Of a stretch of 64,000 nt of DNA, positions 16,641 to 63,145 are shown piece by piece. How positions within the stretch are numbered: position 1 is the stretch's first letter; each line of letters begins with the position of its first letter. The position numbers and the translations under genes are program-made. The notes beneath the pieces were generated by a model that ran no database searches, was not told the DNA's origin, and worked only from the letters and a program-made list of their open reading frames with translations. Source of the DNA: Labia minor (taxonomy: Eukaryota; Arthropoda; Insecta; Dermaptera; Spongiphoridae). The stretch is from the NCBI GenBank assembly GCA_963082975.1, contig OY720350.1:15160910-15224909 (forward strand). Reading direction: 5' to 3'.

Positions 16641-16985
16641 AAAAAAATCATATTTATTAGTTTTTTCTTGATTTGAAATTATATGACGTCATCCAGCCAT
16701 GCATGACGTCACAGCCTGGTCTTGCATATATATTATAAATAAAATAAAATTAAAAATGTTTATATTTATTATTTATGTATCCATATCTGTTTTTTATTAC
16801 ATTAATAGATATATGAAAATTATTTGAAATTGTTTCTGTAGCTGGAAATTAATTTATTTCAGACCGTCGGTCGGTTCGGACCTGGCCACAGGTCAACTTA
16901 TTTTTTTTTTGAGAGAGATTAATAAATATATATATATATTTTATTAAAAATAAATATTTTTAATTTGATTTCGAAATTAAATAAT
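16641..16985. other. A+T-rich spacer, no gene
   Basis: Contains two TGACGTCA-like palindromes (near 16685 and 16705), an ACCGTCGGTCGGTTCGGACC patch near 16863, and another GAGAGAGATT-headed module start near 16911 that leads into the array. Confidence 0.5.
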
Positions 16986-19900
16986 AAATTTTAAAATATT
17001 TTAAATATAAAAAAAATATTAATACAAAATTAAAAAAAGGCGGGAGTAAAATTTCAAAATGGATGCCATTTACGTCACCCATATATAATTTTCAATTAAG
17101 AAATTAATAATGAAGCTGTAAGTTTCAAGAGATGTGATCAATAAAACTCAATTTTTCTTTATAAATACTATATCTAGTGTGAATTTGAAAAAAATCGTTA
17201 GAGCGGTTTTTGAGAACCAATATATATAGAAATATATATAGAAATATATATAGATAGTACCGGGACCCCGAGCCTCGGCTCGGTACTTAAGTTAAAAAAA
17301 ATGATTCATTATTATTGGGTTTGGCTGGTAATATTAATACCTGGGACACCGAGCTGTCGCTCGACCCTTTAAAAAATATTAATCTACAATTAATTATTTA
17401 TTACAATTATTAAATGTTGCATCATTGCATCAATCTGATTAAAATGAATTGAACTGGGGTCCTCAATAATACAAACAAACAATTTTAGCTAGCATAATAA
17501 GATTAATCCAAGTAATATCGTCTATTTCTATTCGACACTATTTTCAGTTATGAAATGAACAGTCAGTAGAGAGTAAAAAAATTGTAATTGAAGACCGTTG
17601 TTTTTAAAAATAATTAAATTATTTTATAGATTATAAAATAAAAATTATTGTATTAACATTAAAAATATTGAAATAAAAAAATAATAGTTTGATTTAATAA
17701 ACTAAAATATTATAAACATTTTTAATGTGAATTTCTCAGGGAGGTAGGGAGCCCAATTCATTTAACCATCCATGTTGTATAAGGAATCTTAATTTCTTAA
17801 CACTCCGTTTTTTCAAATTTAAAATAGAGGGAGAGAAAGAGTTTCAATTATATTCGAATAGTCTATATATTCTATATATGAGTATTTTTTTTTTCTGAAT
17901 TTAATACCAAGTTGATTTTCAAAATTTTCTATTCTTTATGCATATGATTGATTACATGTGTTAAAATTTAAACAAATTCAAATATTCTAATTTATAAATT
18001 TATATAAAATTTAATATTATTTTTTCGAGACTAATGGCAAATACCGGTGGCCCTAGTCAGAGCAAGAGAAGACTCCTTTTGGTAGCGGCCCAGTCGATGA
18101 TGTTATATGGATCGGAGATTTGGGCTTTACAACTATATTTTAAGTGAAAAAATGATTTCTTGGTTATATAAAAATTAAAATATGATTCTTTATATCTTTA
18201 TTATACAGAAAAGTAGGCGTGTTAATATAAAATATATACCTGGGACACCGAACTATCACTCGACCCTTTAACCAATTTATACAATTTATTTTTATATACT
18301 TTAAAAATTTTACAATTTTTTAATTATTTATTATAATTGTTAAATGGGATTTCTAAAAATGACCCATTAAAAATTTGTTTCCTAAAATGTTTCAAATTAA
18401 TTAAAATAAATTGTATAAATGTTCATTTATAAAATCTATATATCTGTGAGTTTGTTTTTCGATTTTTTAAATTTTGATTTTGGATTCGATTAGAGCTTAA
18501 AATGTGTAAATGTAAAGTGGTCTTGGTTTTTTTAAAATTCGTTTGGGAACATGGTCAAATCGGCAGTCAAAGTTGAAAATTCCCCATATATTATAACTAC
18601 TGTAATTAGTATTATTATAATGTATAATTATAAAGAAAAAATGTTTAGACATTATTATAGACATTTTCATTCTGTAAATTAAATAATTTTATTTCATTTA
18701 AATAAATATCTATTTTTAAATATTTTTTTCTCTCTACATTATTTATCTAATTCTCACAATATATTAAGATCATACCGGGACCCCGAGCCTCGGCTCTGTA
18801 ATTAAGTTAAAAAAAAATAATTCATTATTATTGATAAATATATATCGTAATTTATAATTATAAAATATTATTAAAATATATATTTTTAATTTTATTTCGA
18901 AATTAAATAAAAAATTTTAAAATATTTTAAATATAAAAAAAATATATATTTTTAATTTTATTTCGAAATTAAATAAAAAATTTTAAAATATTTTAAATAT
19001 AAAAAAAATATTAATACAAAATTAAAAAAAGGCGGGAGTAAAATTTCAAAATGGATGCCATTTACGTCACCCATATATAATTTTCAATTAAGAAATTAAT
19101 AATGAAGCTGTAAGTTTCAAGAGATGTGATCAATAAAACTCAATTTTTCTTTATAAATACTATATCTAGTGTGAATTTGAAAAAAATCGTTAGAGCGGTT
19201 TTTGAGAACCAATATATATAGAAATATATATAGAAATATATATAGATAGTACCGGGACCCCGAGCCTCGGCTCGGTACTTAAGTTAAAAAAAATGATTCA
19301 TTATTATTGGGTTTGGCTGGTAATATTAATACCTGGGACACCGAGCTGTCGCTCGACCCTTTAAAAAATATTAATCTACAATTAATTATTTATTACAATT
19401 ATTAAATGTTGCATCATTGCATCAATCTGATTAAAATGAATTGAACTGGGGTCCTCAATAATACAAACAAACAATTTTAGCTAGCATAATAAGATTAATC
19501 CAAGTAATATCGTCTATTTCTATTCGACACTATTTTCAGTTATGAAATGAACAGTCAGTAGAGAGTAAAAAAATTGTAATTGAAGACCGTTGTTTTTAAA
19601 AATAATTAAATTATTTTATAGATTATAAAATAAAAATTATTGTATTAACATTAAAAATATTGAAATAAAAAAATAATAGTTTGATTTAATAAACTAAAAT
19701 ATTATAAACATTTTTAATGTGAATTTCTCAGGGAGGTAGGGAGCCCAATTCATTTAACCATCCATGTTGTATAAGGAATCTTAATTTCTTAACACTCCGT
19801 TTTTTCAAATTTAAAATAGAGGGAGAGAAAGAGTTTCAATTATATTCGAATAGTCTATATATTCTATATTTGAGTATTTTTTTTTTCTGAATTTAATACC

Positions 19901-22900
19901 AAGTTGATTTTCAAAATTTTCTATTCTTTATGCATATGATTGATTACATGTGTTAAAATTTAAACAAATTCAAATATTCTAATTTATAAATTTATATAAA
20001 ATTTAATATTATTTTTTCGAGACTAATGGCAAATACCGGTGGCCCTAGTCAGAGCAAGAGAAGACTCCTTTTGGTAGCGGCCCAGTCGATGATGTTATAT
20101 GGATCGGAGATTTGGGCTTTACAACTATATTTTAAGTGAAAAAATGATTTCTTGGTTATATAAAAATTAAAATATGATTCTTTATATCTTTATTATACAG
20201 AAAAGTAGGCGTGTTAATATAAAATATATACCTGGGACACCGAACTATCACTCGACCCTTTAACCAATTTATACAATTTATTTTTATATACTTTAAAAAT
20301 TTTACAATTTTTTAATTATTTATTATAATTGTTAAATGGGATTTCTAAAAATGACCCATTAAAAATTTGTTTCCTAAAATGTTTCAAATTAATTAAAATA
20401 AATTGTATAAATGTTCATTTATAAAATCTATATATCTGTGAGTTTGTTTTTCGATTTTTTAAATTTTGATTTTGGATTCGATTAGAGCTTAAAATGTGTA
20501 AATGTAAAGTGGTCTTGGTTTTTTTAAAATTCGTTTGGGAACATGGTCAAATCGGCAGTCAAAGTTGAAAATTCCCCATATATTATAACTACTGTAATTA
20601 GTATTATTATAATGTATAATTATAAAGAAAAAATGTTTAGACATTATTATAGACATTTTCATTCTGTAAATTAAATAATTTTATTTCATTTAAATAAATA
20701 TCTATTTTTAAATATTTTTTTCTCTCTACATTATTTATCTAATTCTCACAATATATTAAGATCATACCGGGACCCCGAGCCTCGGCTCTGTAATTAAGTT
20801 AAAAAAAAATAATTCATTATTATTGATAAATATATATCGTAATTTATAATTATAAAATATTATTAAAATATATATTTTTAATTTTATTTCGAAATTAAAT
20901 AAAAAATTTTAAAATATTTTAAATATAAAAAAAATATATATTTTTAATTTTATTTCGAAATTAAATAAAAAATTTTAAAATATTTTAAATATAAAAAAAA
21001 TATTAATACAAAATTAAAAAAAGGCGGGAGTAAAATTTCAAAATGGATGCCATTTACGTCACCCATATATAATTTTCAATTAAGAAATTAATAATGAAGC
21101 TGTAAGTTTCAAGAGATGTGATCAATAAAACTCAATTTTTCTTTATAAATACTATATCTAGTGTGAATTTGAAAAAAATCGTTAGAGCGGTTTTTGAGAA
21201 CCAATATATATAGAAATATATATAGAAATATATATAGATAGTACCGGGACCCCGAGCCTCGGCTCGGTACTTAAGTTAAAAAAAATGATTCATTATTATT
21301 GGGTTTGGCTGGTAATATTAATACCTGGGACACCGAGCTGTCGCTCGACCCTTTAAAAAATATTAATCTACAATTAATTATTTATTACAATTATTAAATG
21401 TTGCATCATTGCATCAATCTGATTAAAATGAATTGAACTGGGGTCCTCAATAATACAAACAAACAATTTTAGCTAGCATAATAAGATTAATCCAAGTAAT
21501 ATCGTCTATTTCTATTCGACACTATTTTCAGTTATGAAATGAACAGTCAGTAGAGAGTAAAAAAATTGTAATTGAAGACCGTTGTTTTTAAAAATAATTA
21601 AATTATTTTATAGATTATAAAATAAAAATTATTGTATTAACATTAAAAATATTGAAATAAAAAAATAATAGTTTGATTTAATAAACTAAAATATTATAAA
21701 CATTTTTAATGTGAATTTCTCAGGGAGGTAGGGAGCCCAATTCATTTAACCATCCATGTTGTATAAGGAATCTTAATTTCTTAACACTCCGTTTTTTCAA
21801 ATTTAAAATAGAGGGAGAGAAAGAGTTTCAATTATATTCGAATAGTCTATATATTCTATATATGAGTATTTTTTTTTTCTGAATTTAATACCAAGTTGAT
21901 TTTCAAAATTTTCTATTCTTTATGCATATGATTGATTACATGTGTTAAAATTTAAACAAATTCAAATATTCTAATTTATAAATTTATATAAAATTTAATA
22001 TTATTTTTTCGAGACTAATGGCAAATACCGGTGGCCCTAGTCAGAGCAAGAGAAGACTCCTTTTGGTAGCGGCCCAGTCGATGATGTTATATGGATCGGA
22101 GATTTGGGCTTTACAACTATATTTTAAGTGAAAAAATGATTTCTTGGTTATATAAAAATTAAAATATGATTCTTTATATCTTTATTATACAGAAAAGTAG
22201 GCGTGTTAATATAAAATATATACCTGGGACACCGAACTATCACTCGACCCTTTAACCAATTTATACAATTTATTTTTATATACTTTAAAAATTTTACAAT
22301 TTTTTAATTATTTATTATAATTGTTAAATGGGATTTCTAAAAATGACCCATTAAAAATTTGTTTCCTAAAATGTTTCAAATTAATTAAAATAAATTGTAT
22401 AAATGTTCATTTATAAAATCTATATATCTGTGAGTTTGTTTTTCGATTTTTTAAATTTTGATTTTGGATTCGATTAGAGCTTAAAATGTGTAAATGTAAA
22501 GTGGTCTTGGTTTTTTTAAAATTCGTTTGGGAACATGGTCAAATCGGCAGTCAAAGTTGAAAATTCCCCATATATTATAACTACTGTAATTAGTATTATT
22601 ATAATGTATAATTATAAAGAAAAAATGTTTAGACATTATTATAGACATTTTCATTCTGTAAATTAAATAATTTTATTTCATTTAAATAAATATCTATTTT
22701 TAAATATTTTTTTCTCTCTACATTATTTATCTAATTCTCACAATATATTAAGATCATACCGGGACCCCGAGCCTCGGCTCTGTAATTAAGTTAAAAAAAA
22801 ATAATTCATTATTATTGATAAATATATATCGTAATTTATAATTATAAAATATTATTAAAATATATATTTTTAATTTTATTTCGAAATTAAATAAAAAATT

Positions 22901-25900
22901 TTAAAATATTTTAAATATAAAAAAAATATATATTTTTAATTTTATTTCGAAATTAAATAAAAAATTTTAAAATATTTTAAATATAAAAAAAATATTAATA
23001 CAAAATTAAAAAAAGGCGGGAGTAAAATTTCAAAATGGATGCCATTTACGTCACCCATATATAATTTTCAATTAAGAAATTAATAATGAAGCTGTAAGTT
23101 TCAAGAGATGTGATCAATAAAACTCAATTTTTCTTTATAAATACTATATCTAGTGTGAATTTGAAAAAAATCGTTAGAGCGGTTTTTGAGAACCAATATA
23201 TATAGAAATATATATAGAAATATATATAGATAGTACCGGGACCCCGAGCCTCGGCTCGGTACTTAAGTTAAAAAAAATGATTCATTATTATTGGGTTTGG
23301 CTGGTAATATTAATACCTGGGACACCGAGCTGTCGCTCGACCCTTTAAAAAATATTAATCTACAATTAATTATTTATTACAATTATTAAATGTTGCATCA
23401 TTGCATCAATCTGATTAAAATGAATTGAACTGGGGTCCTCAATAATACAAACAAACAATTTTAGCTAGCATAATAAGATTAATCCAAGTAATATCGTCTA
23501 TTTCTATTCGACACTATTTTCAGTTATGAAATGAACAGTCAGTAGAGAGTAAAAAAATTGTAATTGAAGACCGTTGTTTTTAAAAATAATTAAATTATTT
23601 TATAGATTATAAAATAAAAATTATTGTATTAACATTAAAAATATTGAAATAAAAAAATAATAGTTTGATTTAATAAACTAAAATATTATAAACATTTTTA
23701 ATGTGAATTTCTCAGGGAGGTAGGGAGCCCAATTCATTTAACCATCCATGTTGTATAAGGAATCTTAATTTCTTAACACTCCGTTTTTTCAAATTTAAAA
23801 TAGAGGGAGAGAAAGAGTTTCAATTATATTCGAATAGTCTATATATTCTATATATGAGTATTTTTTTTTTCTGAATTTAATACCAAGTTGATTTTCAAAA
23901 TTTTCTATTCTTTATGCATATGATTGATTACATGTGTTAAAATTTAAACAAATTCAAATATTCTAATTTATAAATTTATATAAAATTTAATATTATTTTT
24001 TCGAGACTAATGGCAAATACCGGTGGCCCTAGTCAGAGCAAGAGAAGACTCCTTTTGGTAGCGGCCCAGTCGATGATGTTATATGGATCGGAGATTTGGG
24101 CTTTACAACTATATTTTAAGTGAAAAAATGATTTCTTGGTTATATAAAAATTAAAATATGATTCTTTATATCTTTATTATACAGAAAAGTAGGCGTGTTA
24201 ATATAAAATATATACCTGGGACACCGAACTATCACTCGACCCTTTAACCAATTTATACAATTTATTTTTATATACTTTAAAAATTTTACAATTTTTTAAT
24301 TATTTATTATAATTGTTAAATGGGATTTCTAAAAATGACCCATTAAAAATTTGTTTCCTAAAATGTTTCAAATTAATTAAAATAAATTGTATAAATGTTC
24401 ATTTATAAAATCTATATATCTGTGAGTTTGTTTTTCGATTTTTTAAATTTTGATTTTGGATTCGATTAGAGCTTAAAATGTGTAAATGTAAAGTGGTCTT
24501 GGTTTTTTTAAAATTCGTTTGGGAACATGGTCAAATCGGCAGTCAAAGTTGAAAATTCCCCATATATTATAACTACTGTAATTAGTATTATTATAATGTA
24601 TAATTATAAAGAAAAAATGTTTAGACATTATTATAGACATTTTCATTCTGTAAATTAAATAATTTTATTTCATTTAAATAAATATCTATTTTTAAATATT
24701 TTTTTCTCTCTACATTATTTATCTAATTCTCACAATATATTAAGATCATACCGGGACCCCGAGCCTCGGCTCTGTAATTAAGTTAAAAAAAAATAATTCA
24801 TTATTATTGATAAATATATATCGTAATTTATAATTATAAAATATTATTAAAATATATATTTTTAATTTTATTTCGAAATTAAATAAAAAATTTTAAAATA
24901 TTTTAAATATAAAAAAAATATATATTTTTAATTTTATTTCGAAATTAAATAAAAAATTTTAAAATATTTTAAATATAAAAAAAATATTAATACAAAATTA
25001 AAAAAAGGCGGGAGTAAAATTTCAAAATGGATGCCATTTACGTCACCCATATATAATTTTCAATTAAGAAATTAATAATGAAGCTGTAAGTTTCAAGAGA
25101 TGTGATCAATAAAACTCAATTTTTCTTTATAAATACTATATCTAGTGTGAATTTGAAAAAAATCGTTAGAGCGGTTTTTGAGAACCAATATATATAGAAA
25201 TATATATAGAAATATATATAGATAGTACCGGGACCCCGAGCCTCGGCTCGGTACTTAAGTTAAAAAAAATGATTCATTATTATTGGGTTTGGCTGGTAAT
25301 ATTAATACCTGGGACACCGAGCTGTCGCTCGACCCTTTAAAAAATATTAATCTACAATTAATTATTTATTACAATTATTAAATGTTGCATCATTGCATCA
25401 ATCTGATTAAAATGAATTGAACTGGGGTCCTCAATAATACAAACAAACAATTTTAGCTAGCATAATAAGATTAATCCAAGTAATATCGTCTATTTCTATT
25501 CGACACTATTTTCAGTTATGAAATGAACAGTCAGTAGAGAGTAAAAAAATTGTAATTGAAGACCGTTGTTTTTAAAAATAATTAAATTATTTTATAGATT
25601 ATAAAATAAAAATTATTGTATTAACATTAAAAATATTGAAATAAAAAAATAATAGTTTGATTTAATAAACTAAAATATTATAAACATTTTTAATGTGAAT
25701 TTCTCAGGGAGGTAGGGAGCCCAATTCATTTAACCATCCATGTTGTATAAGGAATCTTAATTTCTTAACACTCCGTTTTTTCAAATTTAAAATAGAGGGA
25801 GAGAAAGAGTTTCAATTATATTCGAATAGTCTATATATTCTATATATGAGTATTTTTTTTTTCTGAATTTAATACCAAGTTGATTTTCAAAATTTTCTAT

Positions 25901-26945
25901 TCTTTATGCATATGATTGATTACATGTGTTAAAATTTAAACAAATTCAAATATTCTAATTTATAAATTTATATAAAATTTAATATTATTTTTTCGAGACT
26001 AATGGCAAATACCGGTGGCCCTAGTCAGAGCAAGAGAAGACTCCTTTTGGTAGCGGCCCAGTCGATGATGTTATATGGATCGGAGATTTGGGCTTTACAA
26101 CTATATTTTAAGTGAAAAAATGATTTCTTGGTTATATAAAAATTAAAATATGATTCTTTATATCTTTATTATACAGAAAAGTAGGCGTGTTAATATAAAA
26201 TATATACCTGGGACACCGAACTATCACTCGACCCTTTAACCAATTTATACAATTTATTTTTATATACTTTAAAAATTTTACAATTTTTTAATTATTTATT
26301 ATAATTGTTAAATGGGATTTCTAAAAATGACCCATTAAAAATTTGTTTCCTAAAATGTTTCAAATTAATTAAAATAAATTGTATAAATGTTCATTTATAA
26401 AATCTATATATCTGTGAGTTTGTTTTTCGATTTTTTAAATTTTGATTTTGGATTCGATTAGAGCTTAAAATGTGTAAATGTAAAGTGGTCTTGGTTTTTT
26501 TAAAATTCGTTTGGGAACATGGTCAAATCGGCAGTCAAAGTTGAAAATTCCCCATATATTATAACTACTGTAATTAGTATTATTATAATGTATAATTATA
26601 AAGAAAAAATGTTTAGACATTATTATAGACATTTTCATTCTGTAAATTAAATAATTTTATTTCATTTAAATAAATATCTATTTTTAAATATTTTTTTCTC
26701 TCTACATTATTTATCTAATTCTCACAATATATTAAGATCATACCGGGACCCCGAGCCTCGGCTCTGTAATTAAGTTAAAAAAAAATAATTCATTATTATT
26801 GATAAATATATATCGTAATTTATAATTATAAAATATTATTAAAATATATATTTTTAATTTTATTTCGAAATTAAATAAAAAATTTTAAAATATTTTAAAT
26901 ATAAAAAAAATATATATTTTTAATTTTATTTCGAAATTAAATAAA
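16986..26945 (+). repeat. Array of five 1992-bp repeats
   Basis: The anchor GTACCGGG stands at 17257, 19249, 21241, 23233 and 25225, exactly 1992 bp apart. Units are almost identical; one diagnostic base (17878 plus multiples of 1992) reads A, T, A, A, A. Each unit contains a GC-hairpin head, the AGCTAGCATAATAAGATTAA block, a LINE RT shard, a decayed hairpin half, the ATTATAGACATTTTCATTCTG module, a second GC hairpin, doubled AATTTTATTTCGAAATTAAA modules and the GAGCGGTTTTTGAGAACCAA tail. It is a satellite assembled from mobile-element pieces. Confidence 0.95.
18016..18147 (+). pseudogene. LINE reverse transcriptase shard within each 1992-bp repeat
   Basis: An open stretch of about 43 codons reads SRLMANTGGPSQSKRRLL, then QSMMLYGSEIWAL, then a stop. 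This is the conserved segment after the RT palm in several APE-type LINE clades. Because it sits inside the tandem unit, it recurs at 20008-20139, 22000-22131, 23992-24123 and 25984-26115 in this array. It differs from both other LINEs in the window, so it comes from a third element. It is too short to function. Confidence 0.75.
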
Positions 26946-27202
26946 AAATTTTAAAATATTTTAAATATAAAAAAAATATTAATACAAGATTCTTTAAAAA
27001 AAGGCGGGAGTCAAATTTCAATATAAATGTCATTTGTGATGTCATCAATATATAAATTAATAATAAATAATATTAATAAATATTAAATTTAATAAAAGAA
27101 CAATGAATAAATAAATATAAAATAGTAATTTATTAAAATGTAAACAATAGATAAAAAGAAAAAAAATAACAAATTCATTATTTTCATTTTCATTTTTAAA
27201 TA
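26946..27202. repeat. Array edge and A+T-rich modules
   Basis: Array homology ends about 26987, where ATACAAGATTC replaces ATACAAAATT. After an AAAAAAAGGCGGGAGTC motif come the AAAGAACAATGAATAAATAA block and A-rich runs leading into tRNA-like module C. Confidence 0.7.
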
Positions 27203-31060: not shown

Positions 31061-31433
31061 TTTTTCAATTAGGTTCTTATTTATGTACAATATTATTTCT
31101 AATTACAAACACTTTATTAATTGCATGATATTAACAGAAAACACACCAAATTTCACATATAAATATTGAAATTTAACAAAAATGTTTTTTTTTCTAATGG
31201 ATTTAAAAAGAAACACAAACAGAGACGTTGAGTAGGATTCTGTTTCGATGAGGACATGTCACATTTGTTGCCCTCTTCACACATTCTCATAATAAATTTG
31301 TAATAAAATAAAATAACTTCTTTTTATTATAATTTTTTTATTTGAATTAGATATATGTATAAAATTACAAATGACATTAAAAATATTGCAAATATTAATT
31401 TTTTTTAGTAGAAATCAGTAAATTTAAATATTT
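31061..31433. other. 3' flank of the small gene
   Basis: A+T-rich, no coding signal. It contains the putative polyadenylation signal on the minus strand (31337-31342). Confidence 0.5.
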
Positions 31434-32063
31434 TCATAATTTGCGAAAACATTCCGACAAAAGTTCGAATTTCTCATCCAAAGTATTAACATCCTAAAAA
31501 TAAATTATTTAATTTTAAAATGTATTTTATATTTCTATAATTCTTATCTTTATTTAATATTATGATGATGCATAATTGCGTTTTATAAATAAATCTTATA
31601 TATAAAAGGCTGAAATAATTGAAATCTTATAATAATAATTATATATAATGTAAATACAATTGTTATTAGTTTTAGGATATTTTTCTATTAATATTTTATC
31701 ATGAAACTTTTTGATTTTATTTTTTTCTTGTATCAAACATATTAGATTTAATATCAATAGTTCTCTTAATTTCACTTGAATTTCTTAAATCATTTCTATA
31801 CAATTTTTATCTTTCATTCATACCTTTCTATATAATTTGTATGATAAACGAATTTCTTCTTTTTTTGGATCCAATTGTTTCATCTCTGATATATTCTCCT
31901 TCATTTCCTATAATTTTATAATAGATTAAAAGATTAATGTATAAATGCAAATTAGATAGAATAAATTTCTTACCGGAATTAGTTTGTCCTCAAGCGATTT
32001 TTCTAATAATCTAACACATTTCATATTCATTAAATGTATTTCATGAGCTGTTTTCAATGACAT
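31434..32063 (-). CDS. Unrecognised small three-exon gene, unit 1 copy
   Basis: Minus-strand exons: 32063-31974 (90 nt, ATG start), 31907-31824 (84 nt) and 31493-31434 (60 nt, TGA stop). Both introns (66 and 330 bp) are phase 0 with canonical ends: donors CCG|GTAAGA and AAG|GTATGA, acceptors TTATAG|GAA and TTTTAG|GAT. The product is 77 residues: it starts MSLKTAHEIHLMNMK, exon 2 begins EMKENISEMKQLDPKK, and it ends FELLSECFRKL. It is Lys/Glu/Leu-rich and probably helical, with no signal peptide or membrane segment. I do not recognise a family. AATAAA lies about 92 nt after the stop (31337-31342). A P-like element is inserted 124 bp upstream of the ATG. The three junctions agreeing in phase is the main support; transcription is unproven. 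Confidence 0.62.
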
Positions 32064-32179
32064 TTTGGAATATCAAGATTTATTGTTTTTTTTTCCTTGA
32101 TTTTTAATAATCTTAATCAAAAAGATTCAAATACAATTAACTTTAAAAGCTTTAAAACTGTTTAAAACACAGACCTGCA

Positions 32180-32187
32180 CACACCAT
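32180..32187. other. Left 8-bp target duplication of P-like insertion
   Basis: CACACCAT here is repeated at 34750-34757 on the other side of the element and occurs once at the empty site 63146-63153. Confidence 0.93.
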
Positions 32188-43622: not shown

Positions 43623-43967
43623 AAAAAAATCATATTTATTAGTTTTTTCTTGATTTGAAATTATATGACGTCATCCAGCCATGCATGACGTCACAGCCTG
43701 GTCTTGCATATATATTATAAATAAAATAAAATTAAAAATGTTTATATTTATTATTTATGTATCCATATCTGTTTTTTATTACATTAATAGATATATGAAA
43801 ATTATTTGAAATTGTTTCTGTAGCTGGAAATTAATTTATTTCAGACCGTCGGTCGGTTCGGACCTGGCCACAGGTCAACTTATTTTTTTTTTGAGAGAGA
43901 TTAATAAATATATATATATATTTTATTAAAAATAAATATTTTTAATTTGATTTCGAAATTAAATAAT

Positions 43968-46900
43968 AAATTTTAAAATATTTTAAATATAAAAAAAATA
44001 TTAATACAAAATTAAAAAAAGGCGGGAGTAAAATTTCAAAATGGATGCCATTTACGTCACCCATATATAATTTTCAATTAAGAAATTAATAATGAAGCTG
44101 TAAGTTTCAAGAGATGTGATCAATAAAACTCAATTTTTCTTTATAAATACTATATCTAGTGTGAATTTGAAAAAAATCGTTAGAGCGGTTTTTGAGAACC
44201 AATATATATAGAAATATATATAGAAATATATATAGATAGTACCGGGACCCCGAGCCTCGGCTCGGTACTTAAGTTAAAAAAAATGATTCATTATTATTGG
44301 GTTTGGCTGGTAATATTAATACCTGGGACACCGAGCTGTCGCTCGACCCTTTAAAAAATATTAATCTACAATTAATTATTTATTACAATTATTAAATGTT
44401 GCATCATTGCATCAATCTGATTAAAATGAATTGAACTGGGGTCCTCAATAATACAAACAAACAATTTTAGCTAGCATAATAAGATTAATCCAAGTAATAT
44501 CGTCTATTTCTATTCGACACTATTTTCAGTTATGAAATGAACAGTCAGTAGAGAGTAAAAAAATTGTAATTGAAGACCGTTGTTTTTAAAAATAATTAAA
44601 TTATTTTATAGATTATAAAATAAAAATTATTGTATTAACATTAAAAATATTGAAATAAAAAAATAATAGTTTGATTTAATAAACTAAAATATTATAAACA
44701 TTTTTAATGTGAATTTCTCAGGGAGGTAGGGAGCCCAATTCATTTAACCATCCATGTTGTATAAGGAATCTTAATTTCTTAACACTCCGTTTTTTCAAAT
44801 TTAAAATAGAGGGAGAGAAAGAGTTTCAATTATATTCGAATAGTCTATATATTCTATATATGAGTATTTTTTTTTTCTGAATTTAATACCAAGTTGATTT
44901 TCAAAATTTTCTATTCTTTATGCATATGATTGATTACATGTGTTAAAATTTAAACAAATTCAAATATTCTAATTTATAAATTTATATAAAATTTAATATT
45001 ATTTTTTCGAGACTAATGGCAAATACCGGTGGCCCTAGTCAGAGCAAGAGAAGACTCCTTTTGGTAGCGGCCCAGTCGATGATGTTATATGGATCGGAGA
45101 TTTGGGCTTTACAACTATATTTTAAGTGAAAAAATGATTTCTTGGTTATATAAAAATTAAAATATGATTCTTTATATCTTTATTATACAGAAAAGTAGGC
45201 GTGTTAATATAAAATATATACCTGGGACACCGAACTATCACTCGACCCTTTAACCAATTTATACAATTTATTTTTATATACTTTAAAAATTTTACAATTT
45301 TTTAATTATTTATTATAATTGTTAAATGGGATTTCTAAAAATGACCCATTAAAAATTTGTTTCCTAAAATGTTTCAAATTAATTAAAATAAATTGTATAA
45401 ATGTTCATTTATAAAATCTATATATCTGTGAGTTTGTTTTTCGATTTTTTAAATTTTGATTTTGGATTCGATTAGAGCTTAAAATGTGTAAATGTAAAGT
45501 GGTCTTGGTTTTTTTAAAATTCGTTTGGGAACATGGTCAAATCGGCAGTCAAAGTTGAAAATTCCCCATATATTATAACTACTGTAATTAGTATTATTAT
45601 AATGTATAATTATAAAGAAAAAATGTTTAGACATTATTATAGACATTTTCATTCTGTAAATTAAATAATTTTATTTCATTTAAATAAATATCTATTTTTA
45701 AATATTTTTTTCTCTCTACATTATTTATCTAATTCTCACAATATATTAAGATCATACCGGGACCCCGAGCCTCGGCTCTGTAATTAAGTTAAAAAAAAAT
45801 AATTCATTATTATTGATAAATATATATCGTAATTTATAATTATAAAATATTATTAAAATATATATTTTTAATTTTATTTCGAAATTAAATAAAAAATTTT
45901 AAAATATTTTAAATATAAAAAAAATATATATTTTTAATTTTATTTCGAAATTAAATAAAAAATTTTAAAATATTTTAAATATAAAAAAAATATTAATACA
46001 AAATTAAAAAAAGGCGGGAGTAAAATTTCAAAATGGATGCCATTTACGTCACCCATATATAATTTTCAATTAAGAAATTAATAATGAAGCTGTAAGTTTC
46101 AAGAGATGTGATCAATAAAACTCAATTTTTCTTTATAAATACTATATCTAGTGTGAATTTGAAAAAAATCGTTAGAGCGGTTTTTGAGAACCAATATATA
46201 TAGAAATATATATAGAAATATATATAGATAGTACCGGGACCCCGAGCCTCGGCTCGGTACTTAAGTTAAAAAAAATGATTCATTATTATTGGGTTTGGCT
46301 GGTAATATTAATACCTGGGACACCGAGCTGTCGCTCGACCCTTTAAAAAATATTAATCTACAATTAATTATTTATTACAATTATTAAATGTTGCATCATT
46401 GCATCAATCTGATTAAAATGAATTGAACTGGGGTCCTCAATAATACAAACAAACAATTTTAGCTAGCATAATAAGATTAATCCAAGTAATATCGTCTATT
46501 TCTATTCGACACTATTTTCAGTTATGAAATGAACAGTCAGTAGAGAGTAAAAAAATTGTAATTGAAGACCGTTGTTTTTAAAAATAATTAAATTATTTTA
46601 TAGATTATAAAATAAAAATTATTGTATTAACATTAAAAATATTGAAATAAAAAAATAATAGTTTGATTTAATAAACTAAAATATTATAAACATTTTTAAT
46701 GTGAATTTCTCAGGGAGGTAGGGAGCCCAATTCATTTAACCATCCATGTTGTATAAGGAATCTTAATTTCTTAACACTCCGTTTTTTCAAATTTAAAATA
46801 GAGGGAGAGAAAGAGTTTCAATTATATTCGAATAGTCTATATATTCTATATTTGAGTATTTTTTTTTTCTGAATTTAATACCAAGTTGATTTTCAAAATT

Positions 46901-49900
46901 TTCTATTCTTTATGCATATGATTGATTACATGTGTTAAAATTTAAACAAATTCAAATATTCTAATTTATAAATTTATATAAAATTTAATATTATTTTTTC
47001 GAGACTAATGGCAAATACCGGTGGCCCTAGTCAGAGCAAGAGAAGACTCCTTTTGGTAGCGGCCCAGTCGATGATGTTATATGGATCGGAGATTTGGGCT
47101 TTACAACTATATTTTAAGTGAAAAAATGATTTCTTGGTTATATAAAAATTAAAATATGATTCTTTATATCTTTATTATACAGAAAAGTAGGCGTGTTAAT
47201 ATAAAATATATACCTGGGACACCGAACTATCACTCGACCCTTTAACCAATTTATACAATTTATTTTTATATACTTTAAAAATTTTACAATTTTTTAATTA
47301 TTTATTATAATTGTTAAATGGGATTTCTAAAAATGACCCATTAAAAATTTGTTTCCTAAAATGTTTCAAATTAATTAAAATAAATTGTATAAATGTTCAT
47401 TTATAAAATCTATATATCTGTGAGTTTGTTTTTCGATTTTTTAAATTTTGATTTTGGATTCGATTAGAGCTTAAAATGTGTAAATGTAAAGTGGTCTTGG
47501 TTTTTTTAAAATTCGTTTGGGAACATGGTCAAATCGGCAGTCAAAGTTGAAAATTCCCCATATATTATAACTACTGTAATTAGTATTATTATAATGTATA
47601 ATTATAAAGAAAAAATGTTTAGACATTATTATAGACATTTTCATTCTGTAAATTAAATAATTTTATTTCATTTAAATAAATATCTATTTTTAAATATTTT
47701 TTTCTCTCTACATTATTTATCTAATTCTCACAATATATTAAGATCATACCGGGACCCCGAGCCTCGGCTCTGTAATTAAGTTAAAAAAAAATAATTCATT
47801 ATTATTGATAAATATATATCGTAATTTATAATTATAAAATATTATTAAAATATATATTTTTAATTTTATTTCGAAATTAAATAAAAAATTTTAAAATATT
47901 TTAAATATAAAAAAAATATATATTTTTAATTTTATTTCGAAATTAAATAAAAAATTTTAAAATATTTTAAATATAAAAAAAATATTAATACAAAATTAAA
48001 AAAAGGCGGGAGTAAAATTTCAAAATGGATGCCATTTACGTCACCCATATATAATTTTCAATTAAGAAATTAATAATGAAGCTGTAAGTTTCAAGAGATG
48101 TGATCAATAAAACTCAATTTTTCTTTATAAATACTATATCTAGTGTGAATTTGAAAAAAATCGTTAGAGCGGTTTTTGAGAACCAATATATATAGAAATA
48201 TATATAGAAATATATATAGATAGTACCGGGACCCCGAGCCTCGGCTCGGTACTTAAGTTAAAAAAAATGATTCATTATTATTGGGTTTGGCTGGTAATAT
48301 TAATACCTGGGACACCGAGCTGTCGCTCGACCCTTTAAAAAATATTAATCTACAATTAATTATTTATTACAATTATTAAATGTTGCATCATTGCATCAAT
48401 CTGATTAAAATGAATTGAACTGGGGTCCTCAATAATACAAACAAACAATTTTAGCTAGCATAATAAGATTAATCCAAGTAATATCGTCTATTTCTATTCG
48501 ACACTATTTTCAGTTATGAAATGAACAGTCAGTAGAGAGTAAAAAAATTGTAATTGAAGACCGTTGTTTTTAAAAATAATTAAATTATTTTATAGATTAT
48601 AAAATAAAAATTATTGTATTAACATTAAAAATATTGAAATAAAAAAATAATAGTTTGATTTAATAAACTAAAATATTATAAACATTTTTAATGTGAATTT
48701 CTCAGGGAGGTAGGGAGCCCAATTCATTTAACCATCCATGTTGTATAAGGAATCTTAATTTCTTAACACTCCGTTTTTTCAAATTTAAAATAGAGGGAGA
48801 GAAAGAGTTTCAATTATATTCGAATAGTCTATATATTCTATATATGAGTATTTTTTTTTTCTGAATTTAATACCAAGTTGATTTTCAAAATTTTCTATTC
48901 TTTATGCATATGATTGATTACATGTGTTAAAATTTAAACAAATTCAAATATTCTAATTTATAAATTTATATAAAATTTAATATTATTTTTTCGAGACTAA
49001 TGGCAAATACCGGTGGCCCTAGTCAGAGCAAGAGAAGACTCCTTTTGGTAGCGGCCCAGTCGATGATGTTATATGGATCGGAGATTTGGGCTTTACAACT
49101 ATATTTTAAGTGAAAAAATGATTTCTTGGTTATATAAAAATTAAAATATGATTCTTTATATCTTTATTATACAGAAAAGTAGGCGTGTTAATATAAAATA
49201 TATACCTGGGACACCGAACTATCACTCGACCCTTTAACCAATTTATACAATTTATTTTTATATACTTTAAAAATTTTACAATTTTTTAATTATTTATTAT
49301 AATTGTTAAATGGGATTTCTAAAAATGACCCATTAAAAATTTGTTTCCTAAAATGTTTCAAATTAATTAAAATAAATTGTATAAATGTTCATTTATAAAA
49401 TCTATATATCTGTGAGTTTGTTTTTCGATTTTTTAAATTTTGATTTTGGATTCGATTAGAGCTTAAAATGTGTAAATGTAAAGTGGTCTTGGTTTTTTTA
49501 AAATTCGTTTGGGAACATGGTCAAATCGGCAGTCAAAGTTGAAAATTCCCCATATATTATAACTACTGTAATTAGTATTATTATAATGTATAATTATAAA
49601 GAAAAAATGTTTAGACATTATTATAGACATTTTCATTCTGTAAATTAAATAATTTTATTTCATTTAAATAAATATCTATTTTTAAATATTTTTTTCTCTC
49701 TACATTATTTATCTAATTCTCACAATATATTAAGATCATACCGGGACCCCGAGCCTCGGCTCTGTAATTAAGTTAAAAAAAAATAATTCATTATTATTGA
49801 TAAATATATATCGTAATTTATAATTATAAAATATTATTAAAATATATATTTTTAATTTTATTTCGAAATTAAATAAAAAATTTTAAAATATTTTAAATAT

Positions 49901-52900
49901 AAAAAAAATATATATTTTTAATTTTATTTCGAAATTAAATAAAAAATTTTAAAATATTTTAAATATAAAAAAAATATTAATACAAAATTAAAAAAAGGCG
50001 GGAGTAAAATTTCAAAATGGATGCCATTTACGTCACCCATATATAATTTTCAATTAAGAAATTAATAATGAAGCTGTAAGTTTCAAGAGATGTGATCAAT
50101 AAAACTCAATTTTTCTTTATAAATACTATATCTAGTGTGAATTTGAAAAAAATCGTTAGAGCGGTTTTTGAGAACCAATATATATAGAAATATATATAGA
50201 AATATATATAGATAGTACCGGGACCCCGAGCCTCGGCTCGGTACTTAAGTTAAAAAAAATGATTCATTATTATTGGGTTTGGCTGGTAATATTAATACCT
50301 GGGACACCGAGCTGTCGCTCGACCCTTTAAAAAATATTAATCTACAATTAATTATTTATTACAATTATTAAATGTTGCATCATTGCATCAATCTGATTAA
50401 AATGAATTGAACTGGGGTCCTCAATAATACAAACAAACAATTTTAGCTAGCATAATAAGATTAATCCAAGTAATATCGTCTATTTCTATTCGACACTATT
50501 TTCAGTTATGAAATGAACAGTCAGTAGAGAGTAAAAAAATTGTAATTGAAGACCGTTGTTTTTAAAAATAATTAAATTATTTTATAGATTATAAAATAAA
50601 AATTATTGTATTAACATTAAAAATATTGAAATAAAAAAATAATAGTTTGATTTAATAAACTAAAATATTATAAACATTTTTAATGTGAATTTCTCAGGGA
50701 GGTAGGGAGCCCAATTCATTTAACCATCCATGTTGTATAAGGAATCTTAATTTCTTAACACTCCGTTTTTTCAAATTTAAAATAGAGGGAGAGAAAGAGT
50801 TTCAATTATATTCGAATAGTCTATATATTCTATATATGAGTATTTTTTTTTTCTGAATTTAATACCAAGTTGATTTTCAAAATTTTCTATTCTTTATGCA
50901 TATGATTGATTACATGTGTTAAAATTTAAACAAATTCAAATATTCTAATTTATAAATTTATATAAAATTTAATATTATTTTTTCGAGACTAATGGCAAAT
51001 ACCGGTGGCCCTAGTCAGAGCAAGAGAAGACTCCTTTTGGTAGCGGCCCAGTCGATGATGTTATATGGATCGGAGATTTGGGCTTTACAACTATATTTTA
51101 AGTGAAAAAATGATTTCTTGGTTATATAAAAATTAAAATATGATTCTTTATATCTTTATTATACAGAAAAGTAGGCGTGTTAATATAAAATATATACCTG
51201 GGACACCGAACTATCACTCGACCCTTTAACCAATTTATACAATTTATTTTTATATACTTTAAAAATTTTACAATTTTTTAATTATTTATTATAATTGTTA
51301 AATGGGATTTCTAAAAATGACCCATTAAAAATTTGTTTCCTAAAATGTTTCAAATTAATTAAAATAAATTGTATAAATGTTCATTTATAAAATCTATATA
51401 TCTGTGAGTTTGTTTTTCGATTTTTTAAATTTTGATTTTGGATTCGATTAGAGCTTAAAATGTGTAAATGTAAAGTGGTCTTGGTTTTTTTAAAATTCGT
51501 TTGGGAACATGGTCAAATCGGCAGTCAAAGTTGAAAATTCCCCATATATTATAACTACTGTAATTAGTATTATTATAATGTATAATTATAAAGAAAAAAT
51601 GTTTAGACATTATTATAGACATTTTCATTCTGTAAATTAAATAATTTTATTTCATTTAAATAAATATCTATTTTTAAATATTTTTTTCTCTCTACATTAT
51701 TTATCTAATTCTCACAATATATTAAGATCATACCGGGACCCCGAGCCTCGGCTCTGTAATTAAGTTAAAAAAAAATAATTCATTATTATTGATAAATATA
51801 TATCGTAATTTATAATTATAAAATATTATTAAAATATATATTTTTAATTTTATTTCGAAATTAAATAAAAAATTTTAAAATATTTTAAATATAAAAAAAA
51901 TATATATTTTTAATTTTATTTCGAAATTAAATAAAAAATTTTAAAATATTTTAAATATAAAAAAAATATTAATACAAAATTAAAAAAAGGCGGGAGTAAA
52001 ATTTCAAAATGGATGCCATTTACGTCACCCATATATAATTTTCAATTAAGAAATTAATAATGAAGCTGTAAGTTTCAAGAGATGTGATCAATAAAACTCA
52101 ATTTTTCTTTATAAATACTATATCTAGTGTGAATTTGAAAAAAATCGTTAGAGCGGTTTTTGAGAACCAATATATATAGAAATATATATAGAAATATATA
52201 TAGATAGTACCGGGACCCCGAGCCTCGGCTCGGTACTTAAGTTAAAAAAAATGATTCATTATTATTGGGTTTGGCTGGTAATATTAATACCTGGGACACC
52301 GAGCTGTCGCTCGACCCTTTAAAAAATATTAATCTACAATTAATTATTTATTACAATTATTAAATGTTGCATCATTGCATCAATCTGATTAAAATGAATT
52401 GAACTGGGGTCCTCAATAATACAAACAAACAATTTTAGCTAGCATAATAAGATTAATCCAAGTAATATCGTCTATTTCTATTCGACACTATTTTCAGTTA
52501 TGAAATGAACAGTCAGTAGAGAGTAAAAAAATTGTAATTGAAGACCGTTGTTTTTAAAAATAATTAAATTATTTTATAGATTATAAAATAAAAATTATTG
52601 TATTAACATTAAAAATATTGAAATAAAAAAATAATAGTTTGATTTAATAAACTAAAATATTATAAACATTTTTAATGTGAATTTCTCAGGGAGGTAGGGA
52701 GCCCAATTCATTTAACCATCCATGTTGTATAAGGAATCTTAATTTCTTAACACTCCGTTTTTTCAAATTTAAAATAGAGGGAGAGAAAGAGTTTCAATTA
52801 TATTCGAATAGTCTATATATTCTATATATGAGTATTTTTTTTTTCTGAATTTAATACCAAGTTGATTTTCAAAATTTTCTATTCTTTATGCATATGATTG

Positions 52901-55900
52901 ATTACATGTGTTAAAATTTAAACAAATTCAAATATTCTAATTTATAAATTTATATAAAATTTAATATTATTTTTTCGAGACTAATGGCAAATACCGGTGG
53001 CCCTAGTCAGAGCAAGAGAAGACTCCTTTTGGTAGCGGCCCAGTCGATGATGTTATATGGATCGGAGATTTGGGCTTTACAACTATATTTTAAGTGAAAA
53101 AATGATTTCTTGGTTATATAAAAATTAAAATATGATTCTTTATATCTTTATTATACAGAAAAGTAGGCGTGTTAATATAAAATATATACCTGGGACACCG
53201 AACTATCACTCGACCCTTTAACCAATTTATACAATTTATTTTTATATACTTTAAAAATTTTACAATTTTTTAATTATTTATTATAATTGTTAAATGGGAT
53301 TTCTAAAAATGACCCATTAAAAATTTGTTTCCTAAAATGTTTCAAATTAATTAAAATAAATTGTATAAATGTTCATTTATAAAATCTATATATCTGTGAG
53401 TTTGTTTTTCGATTTTTTAAATTTTGATTTTGGATTCGATTAGAGCTTAAAATGTGTAAATGTAAAGTGGTCTTGGTTTTTTTAAAATTCGTTTGGGAAC
53501 ATGGTCAAATCGGCAGTCAAAGTTGAAAATTCCCCATATATTATAACTACTGTAATTAGTATTATTATAATGTATAATTATAAAGAAAAAATGTTTAGAC
53601 ATTATTATAGACATTTTCATTCTGTAAATTAAATAATTTTATTTCATTTAAATAAATATCTATTTTTAAATATTTTTTTCTCTCTACATTATTTATCTAA
53701 TTCTCACAATATATTAAGATCATACCGGGACCCCGAGCCTCGGCTCTGTAATTAAGTTAAAAAAAAATAATTCATTATTATTGATAAATATATATCGTAA
53801 TTTATAATTATAAAATATTATTAAAATATATATTTTTAATTTTATTTCGAAATTAAATAAAAAATTTTAAAATATTTTAAATATAAAAAAAATATATATT
53901 TTTAATTTTATTTCGAAATTAAATAAAAAATTTTAAAATATTTTAAATATAAAAAAAATATTAATACAAAATTAAAAAAAGGCGGGAGTAAAATTTCAAA
54001 ATGGATGCCATTTACGTCACCCATATATAATTTTCAATTAAGAAATTAATAATGAAGCTGTAAGTTTCAAGAGATGTGATCAATAAAACTCAATTTTTCT
54101 TTATAAATACTATATCTAGTGTGAATTTGAAAAAAATCGTTAGAGCGGTTTTTGAGAACCAATATATATAGAAATATATATAGAAATATATATAGATAGT
54201 ACCGGGACCCCGAGCCTCGGCTCGGTACTTAAGTTAAAAAAAATGATTCATTATTATTGGGTTTGGCTGGTAATATTAATACCTGGGACACCGAGCTGTC
54301 GCTCGACCCTTTAAAAAATATTAATCTACAATTAATTATTTATTACAATTATTAAATGTTGCATCATTGCATCAATCTGATTAAAATGAATTGAACTGGG
54401 GTCCTCAATAATACAAACAAACAATTTTAGCTAGCATAATAAGATTAATCCAAGTAATATCGTCTATTTCTATTCGACACTATTTTCAGTTATGAAATGA
54501 ACAGTCAGTAGAGAGTAAAAAAATTGTAATTGAAGACCGTTGTTTTTAAAAATAATTAAATTATTTTATAGATTATAAAATAAAAATTATTGTATTAACA
54601 TTAAAAATATTGAAATAAAAAAATAATAGTTTGATTTAATAAACTAAAATATTATAAACATTTTTAATGTGAATTTCTCAGGGAGGTAGGGAGCCCAATT
54701 CATTTAACCATCCATGTTGTATAAGGAATCTTAATTTCTTAACACTCCGTTTTTTCAAATTTAAAATAGAGGGAGAGAAAGAGTTTCAATTATATTCGAA
54801 TAGTCTATATATTCTATATTTGAGTATTTTTTTTTTCTGAATTTAATACCAAGTTGATTTTCAAAATTTTCTATTCTTTATGCATATGATTGATTACATG
54901 TGTTAAAATTTAAACAAATTCAAATATTCTAATTTATAAATTTATATAAAATTTAATATTATTTTTTCGAGACTAATGGCAAATACCGGTGGCCCTAGTC
55001 AGAGCAAGAGAAGACTCCTTTTGGTAGCGGCCCAGTCGATGATGTTATATGGATCGGAGATTTGGGCTTTACAACTATATTTTAAGTGAAAAAATGATTT
55101 CTTGGTTATATAAAAATTAAAATATGATTCTTTATATCTTTATTATACAGAAAAGTAGGCGTGTTAATATAAAATATATACCTGGGACACCGAACTATCA
55201 CTCGACCCTTTAACCAATTTATACAATTTATTTTTATATACTTTAAAAATTTTACAATTTTTTAATTATTTATTATAATTGTTAAATGGGATTTCTAAAA
55301 ATGACCCATTAAAAATTTGTTTCCTAAAATGTTTCAAATTAATTAAAATAAATTGTATAAATGTTCATTTATAAAATCTATATATCTGTGAGTTTGTTTT
55401 TCGATTTTTTAAATTTTGATTTTGGATTCGATTAGAGCTTAAAATGTGTAAATGTAAAGTGGTCTTGGTTTTTTTAAAATTCGTTTGGGAACATGGTCAA
55501 ATCGGCAGTCAAAGTTGAAAATTCCCCATATATTATAACTACTGTAATTAGTATTATTATAATGTATAATTATAAAGAAAAAATGTTTAGACATTATTAT
55601 AGACATTTTCATTCTGTAAATTAAATAATTTTATTTCATTTAAATAAATATCTATTTTTAAATATTTTTTTCTCTCTACATTATTTATCTAATTCTCACA
55701 ATATATTAAGATCATACCGGGACCCCGAGCCTCGGCTCTGTAATTAAGTTAAAAAAAAATAATTCATTATTATTGATAAATATATATCGTAATTTATAAT
55801 TATAAAATATTATTAAAATATATATTTTTAATTTTATTTCGAAATTAAATAAAAAATTTTAAAATATTTTAAATATAAAAAAAATATATATTTTTAATTT

Positions 55901-57911
55901 TATTTCGAAATTAAATAAAAAATTTTAAAATATTTTAAATATAAAAAAAATATTAATACAAAATTAAAAAAAGGCGGGAGTAAAATTTCAAAATGGATGC
56001 CATTTACGTCACCCATATATAATTTTCAATTAAGAAATTAATAATGAAGCTGTAAGTTTCAAGAGATGTGATCAATAAAACTCAATTTTTCTTTATAAAT
56101 ACTATATCTAGTGTGAATTTGAAAAAAATCGTTAGAGCGGTTTTTGAGAACCAATATATATAGAAATATATATAGAAATATATATAGATAGTACCGGGAC
56201 CCCGAGCCTCGGCTCGGTACTTAAGTTAAAAAAAATGATTCATTATTATTGGGTTTGGCTGGTAATATTAATACCTGGGACACCGAGCTGTCGCTCGACC
56301 CTTTAAAAAATATTAATCTACAATTAATTATTTATTACAATTATTAAATGTTGCATCATTGCATCAATCTGATTAAAATGAATTGAACTGGGGTCCTCAA
56401 TAATACAAACAAACAATTTTAGCTAGCATAATAAGATTAATCCAAGTAATATCGTCTATTTCTATTCGACACTATTTTCAGTTATGAAATGAACAGTCAG
56501 TAGAGAGTAAAAAAATTGTAATTGAAGACCGTTGTTTTTAAAAATAATTAAATTATTTTATAGATTATAAAATAAAAATTATTGTATTAACATTAAAAAT
56601 ATTGAAATAAAAAAATAATAGTTTGATTTAATAAACTAAAATATTATAAACATTTTTAATGTGAATTTCTCAGGGAGGTAGGGAGCCCAATTCATTTAAC
56701 CATCCATGTTGTATAAGGAATCTTAATTTCTTAACACTCCGTTTTTTCAAATTTAAAATAGAGGGAGAGAAAGAGTTTCAATTATATTCGAATAGTCTAT
56801 ATATTCTATATTTGAGTATTTTTTTTTTCTGAATTTAATACCAAGTTGATTTTCAAAATTTTCTATTCTTTATGCATATGATTGATTACATGTGTTAAAA
56901 TTTAAACAAATTCAAATATTCTAATTTATAAATTTATATAAAATTTAATATTATTTTTTCGAGACTAATGGCAAATACCGGTGGCCCTAGTCAGAGCAAG
57001 AGAAGACTCCTTTTGGTAGCGGCCCAGTCGATGATGTTATATGGATCGGAGATTTGGGCTTTACAACTATATTTTAAGTGAAAAAATGATTTCTTGGTTA
57101 TATAAAAATTAAAATATGATTCTTTATATCTTTATTATACAGAAAAGTAGGCGTGTTAATATAAAATATATACCTGGGACACCGAACTATCACTCGACCC
57201 TTTAACCAATTTATACAATTTATTTTTATATACTTTAAAAATTTTACAATTTTTTAATTATTTATTATAATTGTTAAATGGGATTTCTAAAAATGACCCA
57301 TTAAAAATTTGTTTCCTAAAATGTTTCAAATTAATTAAAATAAATTGTATAAATGTTCATTTATAAAATCTATATATCTGTGAGTTTGTTTTTCGATTTT
57401 TTAAATTTTGATTTTGGATTCGATTAGAGCTTAAAATGTGTAAATGTAAAGTGGTCTTGGTTTTTTTAAAATTCGTTTGGGAACATGGTCAAATCGGCAG
57501 TCAAAGTTGAAAATTCCCCATATATTATAACTACTGTAATTAGTATTATTATAATGTATAATTATAAAGAAAAAATGTTTAGACATTATTATAGACATTT
57601 TCATTCTGTAAATTAAATAATTTTATTTCATTTAAATAAATATCTATTTTTAAATATTTTTTTCTCTCTACATTATTTATCTAATTCTCACAATATATTA
57701 AGATCATACCGGGACCCCGAGCCTCGGCTCTGTAATTAAGTTAAAAAAAAATAATTCATTATTATTGATAAATATATATCGTAATTTATAATTATAAAAT
57801 ATTATTAAAATATATATTTTTAATTTTATTTCGAAATTAAATAAAAAATTTTAAAATATTTTAAATATAAAAAAAATATATATTTTTAATTTTATTTCGA
57901 AATTAAATAAA
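43968..57911 (+). repeat. Array of seven 1992-bp repeats
   Basis: GTACCGGG anchors at 44239, 46231, 48223, 50215, 52207, 54199 and 56191. The diagnostic base (44860 plus multiples of 1992) reads A, T, A, A, A, T, T. The first five thus match array 1 and the two extra units are of the T type. Module content is the same as in array 1. Confidence 0.95.
44998..45129 (+). pseudogene. LINE RT shard in each repeat of array 2
   Basis: Same SRLMANTGGPSQSKRRLL ... LYGSEIWAL fragment as in array 1. It recurs at 46990-47121, 48982-49113, 50974-51105, 52966-53097, 54958-55089 and 56950-57081. Confidence 0.75.
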
Positions 57912-58168
57912 AAATTTTAAAATATTTTAAATATAAAAAAAATATTAATACAATATTCTTTAAAAAAAGGCGGGAGTCAAATTTCAATATAAATGTCATT
58001 TGTGATGTCATCAATATATAAATTAATAATAAATAATATTAATAAATATTAAATTTAATAAAAGAACAATGAATAAATAAATATAAAATAGTAATTTATT
58101 AAAATGTAAACAATAGATAAAAAGAAAAAAAATAACAAATTCATTATTTTCATTTTCATTTTTAAATA

Positions 58169-63029: not shown

Positions 63030-63145
63030 TTTGGAATATCAAGATTTATTGTTTTTTTTTCCTTGATTTTTAATAATCTTAATCAAAAAGATTCAAATAC
63101 AATTAACTTTAAAAGCTTTAAAACTGTTTAAAACACAGACCTGCA

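Follow-up and report, generated by a model that had tools for sequence, protein, structure and literature searches.

A Putative Ankyrin-Less Coiled-Coil Gene with Accelerated Exons and Conserved Introns in Labia minor

Introduction

Three short blocks of open frame lie on the minus strand at 31434..32063 of a DNA window from Labia minor, and the question that this locus raises is whether they form a gene and, if so, from what such a gene might descend. The window, i.e., the whole stretch of 64,000 nucleotides that was analysed, corresponds to C9:15160910-15224909, and the genome searched comprises 604 Mb in 71 contigs.

Results and Discussion

Gene Model and Its Twin in the Window

The first-pass annotation had proposed a three-exon gene that scans for open reading frames overlook, and its exons, GT-AG introns, phase 0 and 77-codon frame were all recovered as claimed. 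Exon 1 (31974..32063, 90 nt, 30 codons) begins with ATG and is followed by intron 1 (31908..31973, 66 bp, GTAAG...TAG), exon 2 (31824..31907, 84 nt, 28 codons; two codons shorter in aligned relatives), intron 2 (31494..31823, 330 bp, GTATG...TAG) and exon 3 (31434..31493, 60 nt, 19 codons plus TGA), all on the minus strand and with both introns in phase 0. Splicing thus gives a frame of 77 codons that is closed by TGA. As for the twin at 62400-63029, it is as exact as had been stated: its exon 1 (62940..63029), exon 2 (62790..62873) and exon 3 (62400..62459), likewise on the minus strand, are identical to those of copy 1, and 31200 to 32187 equals 62166-63153 over the whole 988 bp.

A multi-exon frame of this size is, however, easily obtained. 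When spliced frames were scanned with at most two GT-AG introns of 50–400 bp each, 16 of 40 dinucleotide-shuffled copies of the stretch yielded a frame of at least 77 codons, and the gene stretch itself contains a longer alternative of 111 codons. The downstream AATAAA cited in support of the gene is present on the minus strand, at 31342 and 31328, but it was given little weight because the window contains this hexamer 4.3 times per kb on each strand. Taken alone, the exon structure is not beyond chance; since structure alone proves little in A/T-rich DNA, outside evidence is required for the model. Judged on sequence comparison, this evidence is well beyond chance, as described below.

Relationship to a Coiled-Coil/Ankyrin-Repeat Family

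A DNA search of the same genome with the window gene gave at least 61 matches, with 40 of the 79 candidates scored. The 56 matches beyond the five copies on C9 all fall within query positions 78-605, a span running from the exon 1 end into the beginning of exon 3, and many of them are partial. In the relatives, an ankyrin exon comes after short coiled-coil exons, and some of them (L026 and L027) repeat a coiled-coil exon. Read with X at stops, the relative L028 matches Ank_2 with E = 1.4e-38, and the open 445-codon exon of L027 does so with E = 5e-158. A 66-residue probe from the start of the ankyrin exon of L020 found 82 genome matches, the weakest of which may be other ankyrin genes; for 46 of the 82, the surrounding open frame has 200 codons or more, with a maximum of 3,539, and 10 are interrupted by stops. 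Outside the window, the probe matches at C1:19001214 and C10:42977246 are each contained in one open frame, of 3,539 and 2,870 codons, respectively; these would be giant one-exon genes. A further ankyrin relative with an open frame is situated on C6 near 66.158 Mb.

Introns 1 and 2 of the window gene are homologous to the family introns and lie at the same phase-0 places, exon 2 is homologous to the family exon 2 and aligns with one 6-nt gap, and the 5' flank can also be aligned to the family. In the relatives with ankyrin repeats, the exon corresponding to exon 3 continues into these repeats, whereas that of the window gene stops after 19 codons, and no Pfam ankyrin match was found in the 77 residues. 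Since it is without ankyrin repeats, the window gene is a derived paralogue and not a full member of the family. These homologies show that the predicted gene is a paralogue of a large ankyrin-repeat family, from whose N-terminal coiled-coil exons it descends, and that it is devoid of the ankyrin part. A family of the same genome can therefore be named, where the first-pass annotation had been able to name none.

The start codon also differs from that of the family. At 32081..32083, on the minus strand, the alignment has ATA in the window gene where five aligned relatives have ATG (ATGAATCTTGAT), followed by a 1-nt deletion and then a new ATG. The ancestral ATG opens a frame through exon 1 in three of the five relatives (L020, L025, and L029), the other two being frameshifted, and both window copies start at the later ATG, in frame with the rest of exon 1. 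Beyond this genome, a 70-residue probe gave pattern stretches in viral contigs (15) and in prokaryotic genome contigs (163), none of which was confirmed as a family relative; the prokaryotic collection says little on this point. In the open-access papers searched for an ankyrin expansion of this type, or for fast exons with conserved introns, no description of the coiled-coil/ankyrin family was found.

Divergence of Exons and Introns from the Family

The window gene was compared with a consensus of eight dispersed copies, taken from the 56 dispersed DNA matches, and each of the eight was likewise tested against the consensus of the rest. L020 and L021 (0–1% different from L022 in the compared unit), two further modules of L018 (3–4% from the first and 0–1% from each other) and the partial modules L023 and L024 were left out. 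The introns of the window gene differ from the consensus at 13 of 396 sites, i.e., 1 of 66 in intron 1 and 12 of 330 in intron 2, whereas exon 2 differs at 22 of 78 sites and carries two extra codons. The resulting exon 2/intron ratio is 8.6 (p = 1e-10). In the eight other copies this ratio is 1.0–2.2, with a lowest p of 0.035, and none is comparable to the window gene. In exon 3, 31 of 60 sites depart from the six-copy family consensus used for the segmentation described below. For exon 1, comparison with five relatives gave 45–50 differences in 77–87 aligned sites (52–60%), against 3–5 differences in 66 (5–8%) for intron 1 and 10–22% for the 72 bp 5' of exon 1; among the five relatives themselves, exon 1 is 0–18% different.

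Intron constraint was considered as a cause of this contrast. Three dead copies, L017, L018 and L028, bear stops in exon 2, and their exon 2/intron ratios are 1.1, 2.1 and 2.2 (p = 0.41, 0.07, and 0.09). Because exon 2 and the introns of these copies do not differ significantly, constraint on the introns was ruled out as the cause.

A two-state segmentation was applied to the differences from a family consensus of six copies, three of which reach exon 1 and the 5' flank; the rates were set by the analyst and the gene model was not supplied. Three fast stretches were called, 32069-31975, 31907-31831 and a third that begins at 31493. Two of the borders, 31907 and 31493, are the exact starts of exon 2 and exon 3, and the others lie one base from the end of exon 1 (31974), 6 bases ahead of the ATG (32069) and 7 bases short of the end of exon 2 (31830). 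The 3' end is not delimited, as the fast state reaches the end of the alignment at 31400; it continues this far because past the stop the relatives have ankyrin code and the window gene has none. These comparisons show that the exons of the predicted gene, and not its introns, have been strongly accelerated in its lineage, in agreement with the earlier suggestion of a fast-evolving small protein. A tiny split gene can be supported in this manner without RNA data, the borders of acceleration alone falling near the splice sites.

Predicted Protein Product

The 77-residue product is charged and leucine-rich, with 12 K, 11 E and 13 L, and its two cysteines, read by eye, are 57 residues apart. The best 28-residue heptad stretch, residues 47–74, extends across the exon 2/3 junction, and 7 of 1000 shuffles were as good; in a family composite assembled by the analyst, the best stretch also crosses this junction, and 2 of 1000 shuffles were as good. 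Since a crude hydropathy test shows no evident signal peptide (averaged over 11 residues, hydropathy within the first 35 does not exceed 0.68), the product is probably intracellular. A Pfam search with the 77 residues gave no significant match, the best being HEF_HK with E = 0.011, under its cut-off. Similarly, a PDB sequence search gave none (best E = 1.4), the best PDB match of the family composite had E = 0.15, and an Rfam search of the window gave no match.

Copies on C9 and Their Genomic Setting

The gene had been described as duplicated, and the identical twin bears this out, but there is more than a duplication: C9 carries, in a span of 119 kb, five copies spaced 16 to 49 kb apart, of which four are identical and the fifth, C9e, is 97% identical to them. 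Long blocks in the window recur at about 27 and 31 kb. Their shared content comprises a LINE with an 896-codon frame, an array of 1,992-bp repeats and, at the right end, the window gene, and the blocks extend past the window on both sides. The tandem array has 5.1 units 3' of copy 1 (16946..27079) and 7.1 units of the same repeat 3' of copy 2 (43928..58045). This repeat is 23% GC, its adjacent full units are 99.8–100% identical, and the number of units differs between the segmental copies.

The two window copies diverge 5' of 32187/63153, i.e., from 124 bp ahead of the ATG, and the upstream sequence of C9e diverges from 88 bp ahead of it. The upstream 400 bp are the same in window copy 2 and in two copies to the left and different in copy 1. 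Copy 2 retains upstream sequence that is common to the relatives and that copy 1 has lost. This block (63180..63402, minus strand) is 88–89% identical over 190 bp to L020 and L022, with shorter matches to L025 and L028; the relatives that share it lie on other chromosomes, and it was not found upstream of copy 1. Part of the block matches in both orientations, and it may therefore be, or include, an old short repeat insertion. The claim that the gene is intact holds for the frame, which is open in both window copies, but not for its surroundings, as copy 1 is without the shared upstream region and both copies are without the ancestral start codon. At a recurrent junction, 63146-63153 / 7768, the upstream edge of the gene adjoins sequence beginning at 7768, and in the left-hand copies the two overlap by 8 bp; the junction of window copy 1 differs and lies at 32187.

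Substitution Pattern and the Fifth Copy

For exon 2, dN and dS are 0.47 and 0.04 against L025, and 0.54 and 0.08 against L026, with a smaller gap against L020 (0.49 and 0.21); the synonymous changes behind these values are tiny in number (0.5–2.3). The excess of dN is partly a family trait, because dN also exceeds dS in three other family pairs (0.17/0.04, 0.28/0.15, and 0.32/0.20). The 13 alignable codons of exon 3 gave a dN of 0.75–0.84 and a dS of 0.60–0.96. As there is no clear excess of dN here, exons 1 and 3 may have been exchanged and not selected base by base.

The fifth copy provides a closer comparison. An alignment of C9e with window copy 2 over 7,238 bp contains 19 substitutions and 6 gap positions. 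Its 90-bp exon 1 contains 13 of the 19 substitutions and all 6 gap positions, which form two 3-nt indels (Fisher p = 1e-21). Of the remaining six substitutions, four lie in the flanks and one in intron 2, and the last replaces an amino acid encoded by exon 2. When exon 1 was aligned by codons, with the gaps placed on codons, it showed 14 differences, of which 13 are nonsynonymous and 1 is synonymous, and the frame is open. Since such clustered change is hard to reach by point substitution alone, exon 1 of C9e has likely undergone exchange with a diverged version. When the genome was searched with these 90 bases, the five candidates obtained were the five C9 copies, although a short AT-rich query may miss diverged donors. 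A donor, if any, would therefore be another haplotype, a lost copy, too diverged, or outside the assembly.

These data bear on the foremost rival explanation, in which the differences in the exons arose mainly because exon segments were exchanged, by ordinary gene conversion, from an allele of another haplotype or from a reverse-transcribed mRNA template, and not through base-by-base selection. This account is a serious contender, albeit a doubtful one. A cDNA template would by itself end at exon borders. Single substitutions could hardly produce thirteen changes together with two indels within 90 bp when the surrounding 7.1 kb has six changes, and exon 1 of C9e has one synonymous change, where the flank rate predicts 0.013. 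Exons 1 and 3 also appear largely replaced, and a switching of exon segments between conserved introns has been reported for snake three-finger toxins (PMC2474615). Nevertheless, the assembly yielded no donor for exon 1 of C9e in the search with the short AT-rich query, and exon 2 is alignable and has an excess of nonsynonymous changes. With the change in a 7-kb comparison concentrated in one 90-bp exon, selection and exon exchange can be tested against each other by resequencing.

Extent, Possible Decay and Possible Age of the Gene

The 77-residue frame could also be part of a longer gene, with a further 5' exon such as a signal-peptide exon, or of another splice pattern. This is unlikely: although the stretch offers the 111-codon alternative and one relative has an extra coiled-coil exon, the accelerated stretch begins just 6 bases ahead of the proposed ATG. 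Moreover, the upstream sequence differs between copies from the points given above, at 124 and 88 bp ahead of the ATG, so a shared 5' exon would lie farther out.

It is more improbable still that the gene is a decayed family copy whose frame is open by chance. The ancestral ATG and the ankyrin part are indeed gone, chance frames of this size are common in the shuffled copies, and dead relatives exist, both among the probe matches with stops and in L017, L018 and L028. However, the dead copies do not approach the window gene in their exon 2/intron ratios, exon 2 of the window gene has no stop and its indel relative to the consensus is codon-sized, and C9e has again changed mainly in exon 1 with the frame kept. 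Finally, the gene could represent an old, diverged subfamily in which gene conversion homogenised the introns with those of the family and bypassed the exons. Such a history would likewise yield similar introns and different exons and is compatible with the exon 3 dS of 0.6 or more, but it is very unlikely, since it predicts old synonymous divergence, whereas the exon 2 dS of 0.04–0.08 against L025 and L026 is at the intron level.

Proposed Origin and Possible Function

On balance, the locus probably contains an ankyrin-less coiled-coil mini-paralogue that is spliced, presumably translated, amplified, and presumably under diversifying selection. The N-terminal coiled-coil exons of the ankyrin family gave rise to a shortened paralogue without ankyrin repeats, in which the family start codon is lost and a new in-frame ATG is present. 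Five copies arose by amplification on one chromosome, the exons and not the introns are accelerated, and C9e shows fresh change that is concentrated in exon 1. Accelerated exons with conserved introns are a pattern known from genes engaged in evolutionary arms races. That such a signature occurs in an ankyrin-derived coiled-coil gene, whose copies lie next to a satellite-like array, suggests that a conflict system may exist in this animal.

As for function, the likeliest mechanism, although one that we infer with less confidence from the architecture, is that the mini-paralogue might act as a microprotein. Its bare oligomerisation helix would pair and compete with the coiled-coil ends of the full-length ankyrin paralogues or of their partners, and exon 1 would form the contact surface in a conflict, either between host and parasite or within the genome. 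A far more speculative idea, and an improbable one, is that of an exon-directed diversity generator, in which exon 1 would be rewritten in frame as a unit bounded by its splice site, the introns and kilobases of flank being left nearly unchanged. Conversion from reverse-transcribed spliced mRNA is one example of how this might occur, with the tandem array as a reservoir of versions.

Comparison with Known Systems

Exons that evolve faster than the introns between them have, to our knowledge, been described mostly in genes for venoms and for secreted effectors. The exons of conotoxins evolve fast, and both conotoxins and three-finger toxins are disulphide-rich; a microProtein is a small protein related to a multidomain family, from which it retains an interaction helix. 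The two venom families share with the window gene conserved introns, differing exons and membership in a multigene family. In snake three-finger toxins, the introns are reported to be conserved while exon segments are switched (PMC2474615), and conserved introns are likewise reported for conotoxin genes (PMC3862624). The toxins are secreted, however, whereas the product of the window gene has two cysteines and, by the crude test, no hydrophobic leader, and is charged and probably helical.

The aphid bicycle effectors have been described as a rapidly evolving multigene family with very small exons (PMC9168663), and rapid evolution, very small exons and membership in a multigene family are features that the window gene shares. 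According to the same source, a secretion signal and the CYC motif are present in the majority of the pea aphid's bicycle homologues, while homologues of other groups may lack an obvious CYC motif (PMC9168663). In the product of the window gene, neither a CYC motif, sought by eye, nor an N-terminal secretion signal, by crude hydropathy, was found. The window gene would resemble microProteins as a small paralogue that keeps a putative interaction helix of a multidomain family, but it differs from them in being hypervariable. An exon/intron pattern known from venom and effector families would thus be met here in a small, apparently intracellular coiled-coil protein.

Other Content of the Window and Genome

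The window had been portrayed as otherwise broken coding sequence with the three-exon gene as the only candidate host gene. The former statement is contradicted by a LINE frame of 896 codons on the plus strand, at 9433-12123 and 36415-39105, which is identical in both segmental copies and carries near full-length matches to endonuclease (Exo_endo_phos_2) and reverse transcriptase (RVT_1, E = 3e-32) domains. The latter may hold. Eleven other unspliced frames of at least 120 codons, counting twins, reduce to six distinct ones, comprising two with clear transposon matches, one with a weak match and one antisense to the LINE frame; the remaining two are without a significant Pfam match.

Among these frames, two overlapping ones on the plus strand at 6447-7272 and 33429-34254 are identical in both copies; the first has a weak match to P-element transposase (E = 0.017, under the cut-off), and the second has none. 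At 493-1284, on the minus strand, a 263-codon fragment of DDE_Tnp_1_7 transposase (E = 3e-23) is present, which we take to be of the piggyBac type. A 156-codon open frame on the plus strand at 28765-29235 and 59731-60201 has no significant Pfam match (best E = 0.059, under the cut-off).

Outside the window, COX1 on the mitochondrial contig C14 (26.5 kb) can be read through with the invertebrate code, and it is present twice, in inverted orientation, within C14:15673-26497, the copies being 100% identical over the 2,520 bp compared. This inverted pair may be a dimer-like arrangement or a palindromic assembly artefact, which would look alike. It is reminiscent of the circular mitochondrial dimers of about 28 kb that have been reported for many isopods (PMC4502366).
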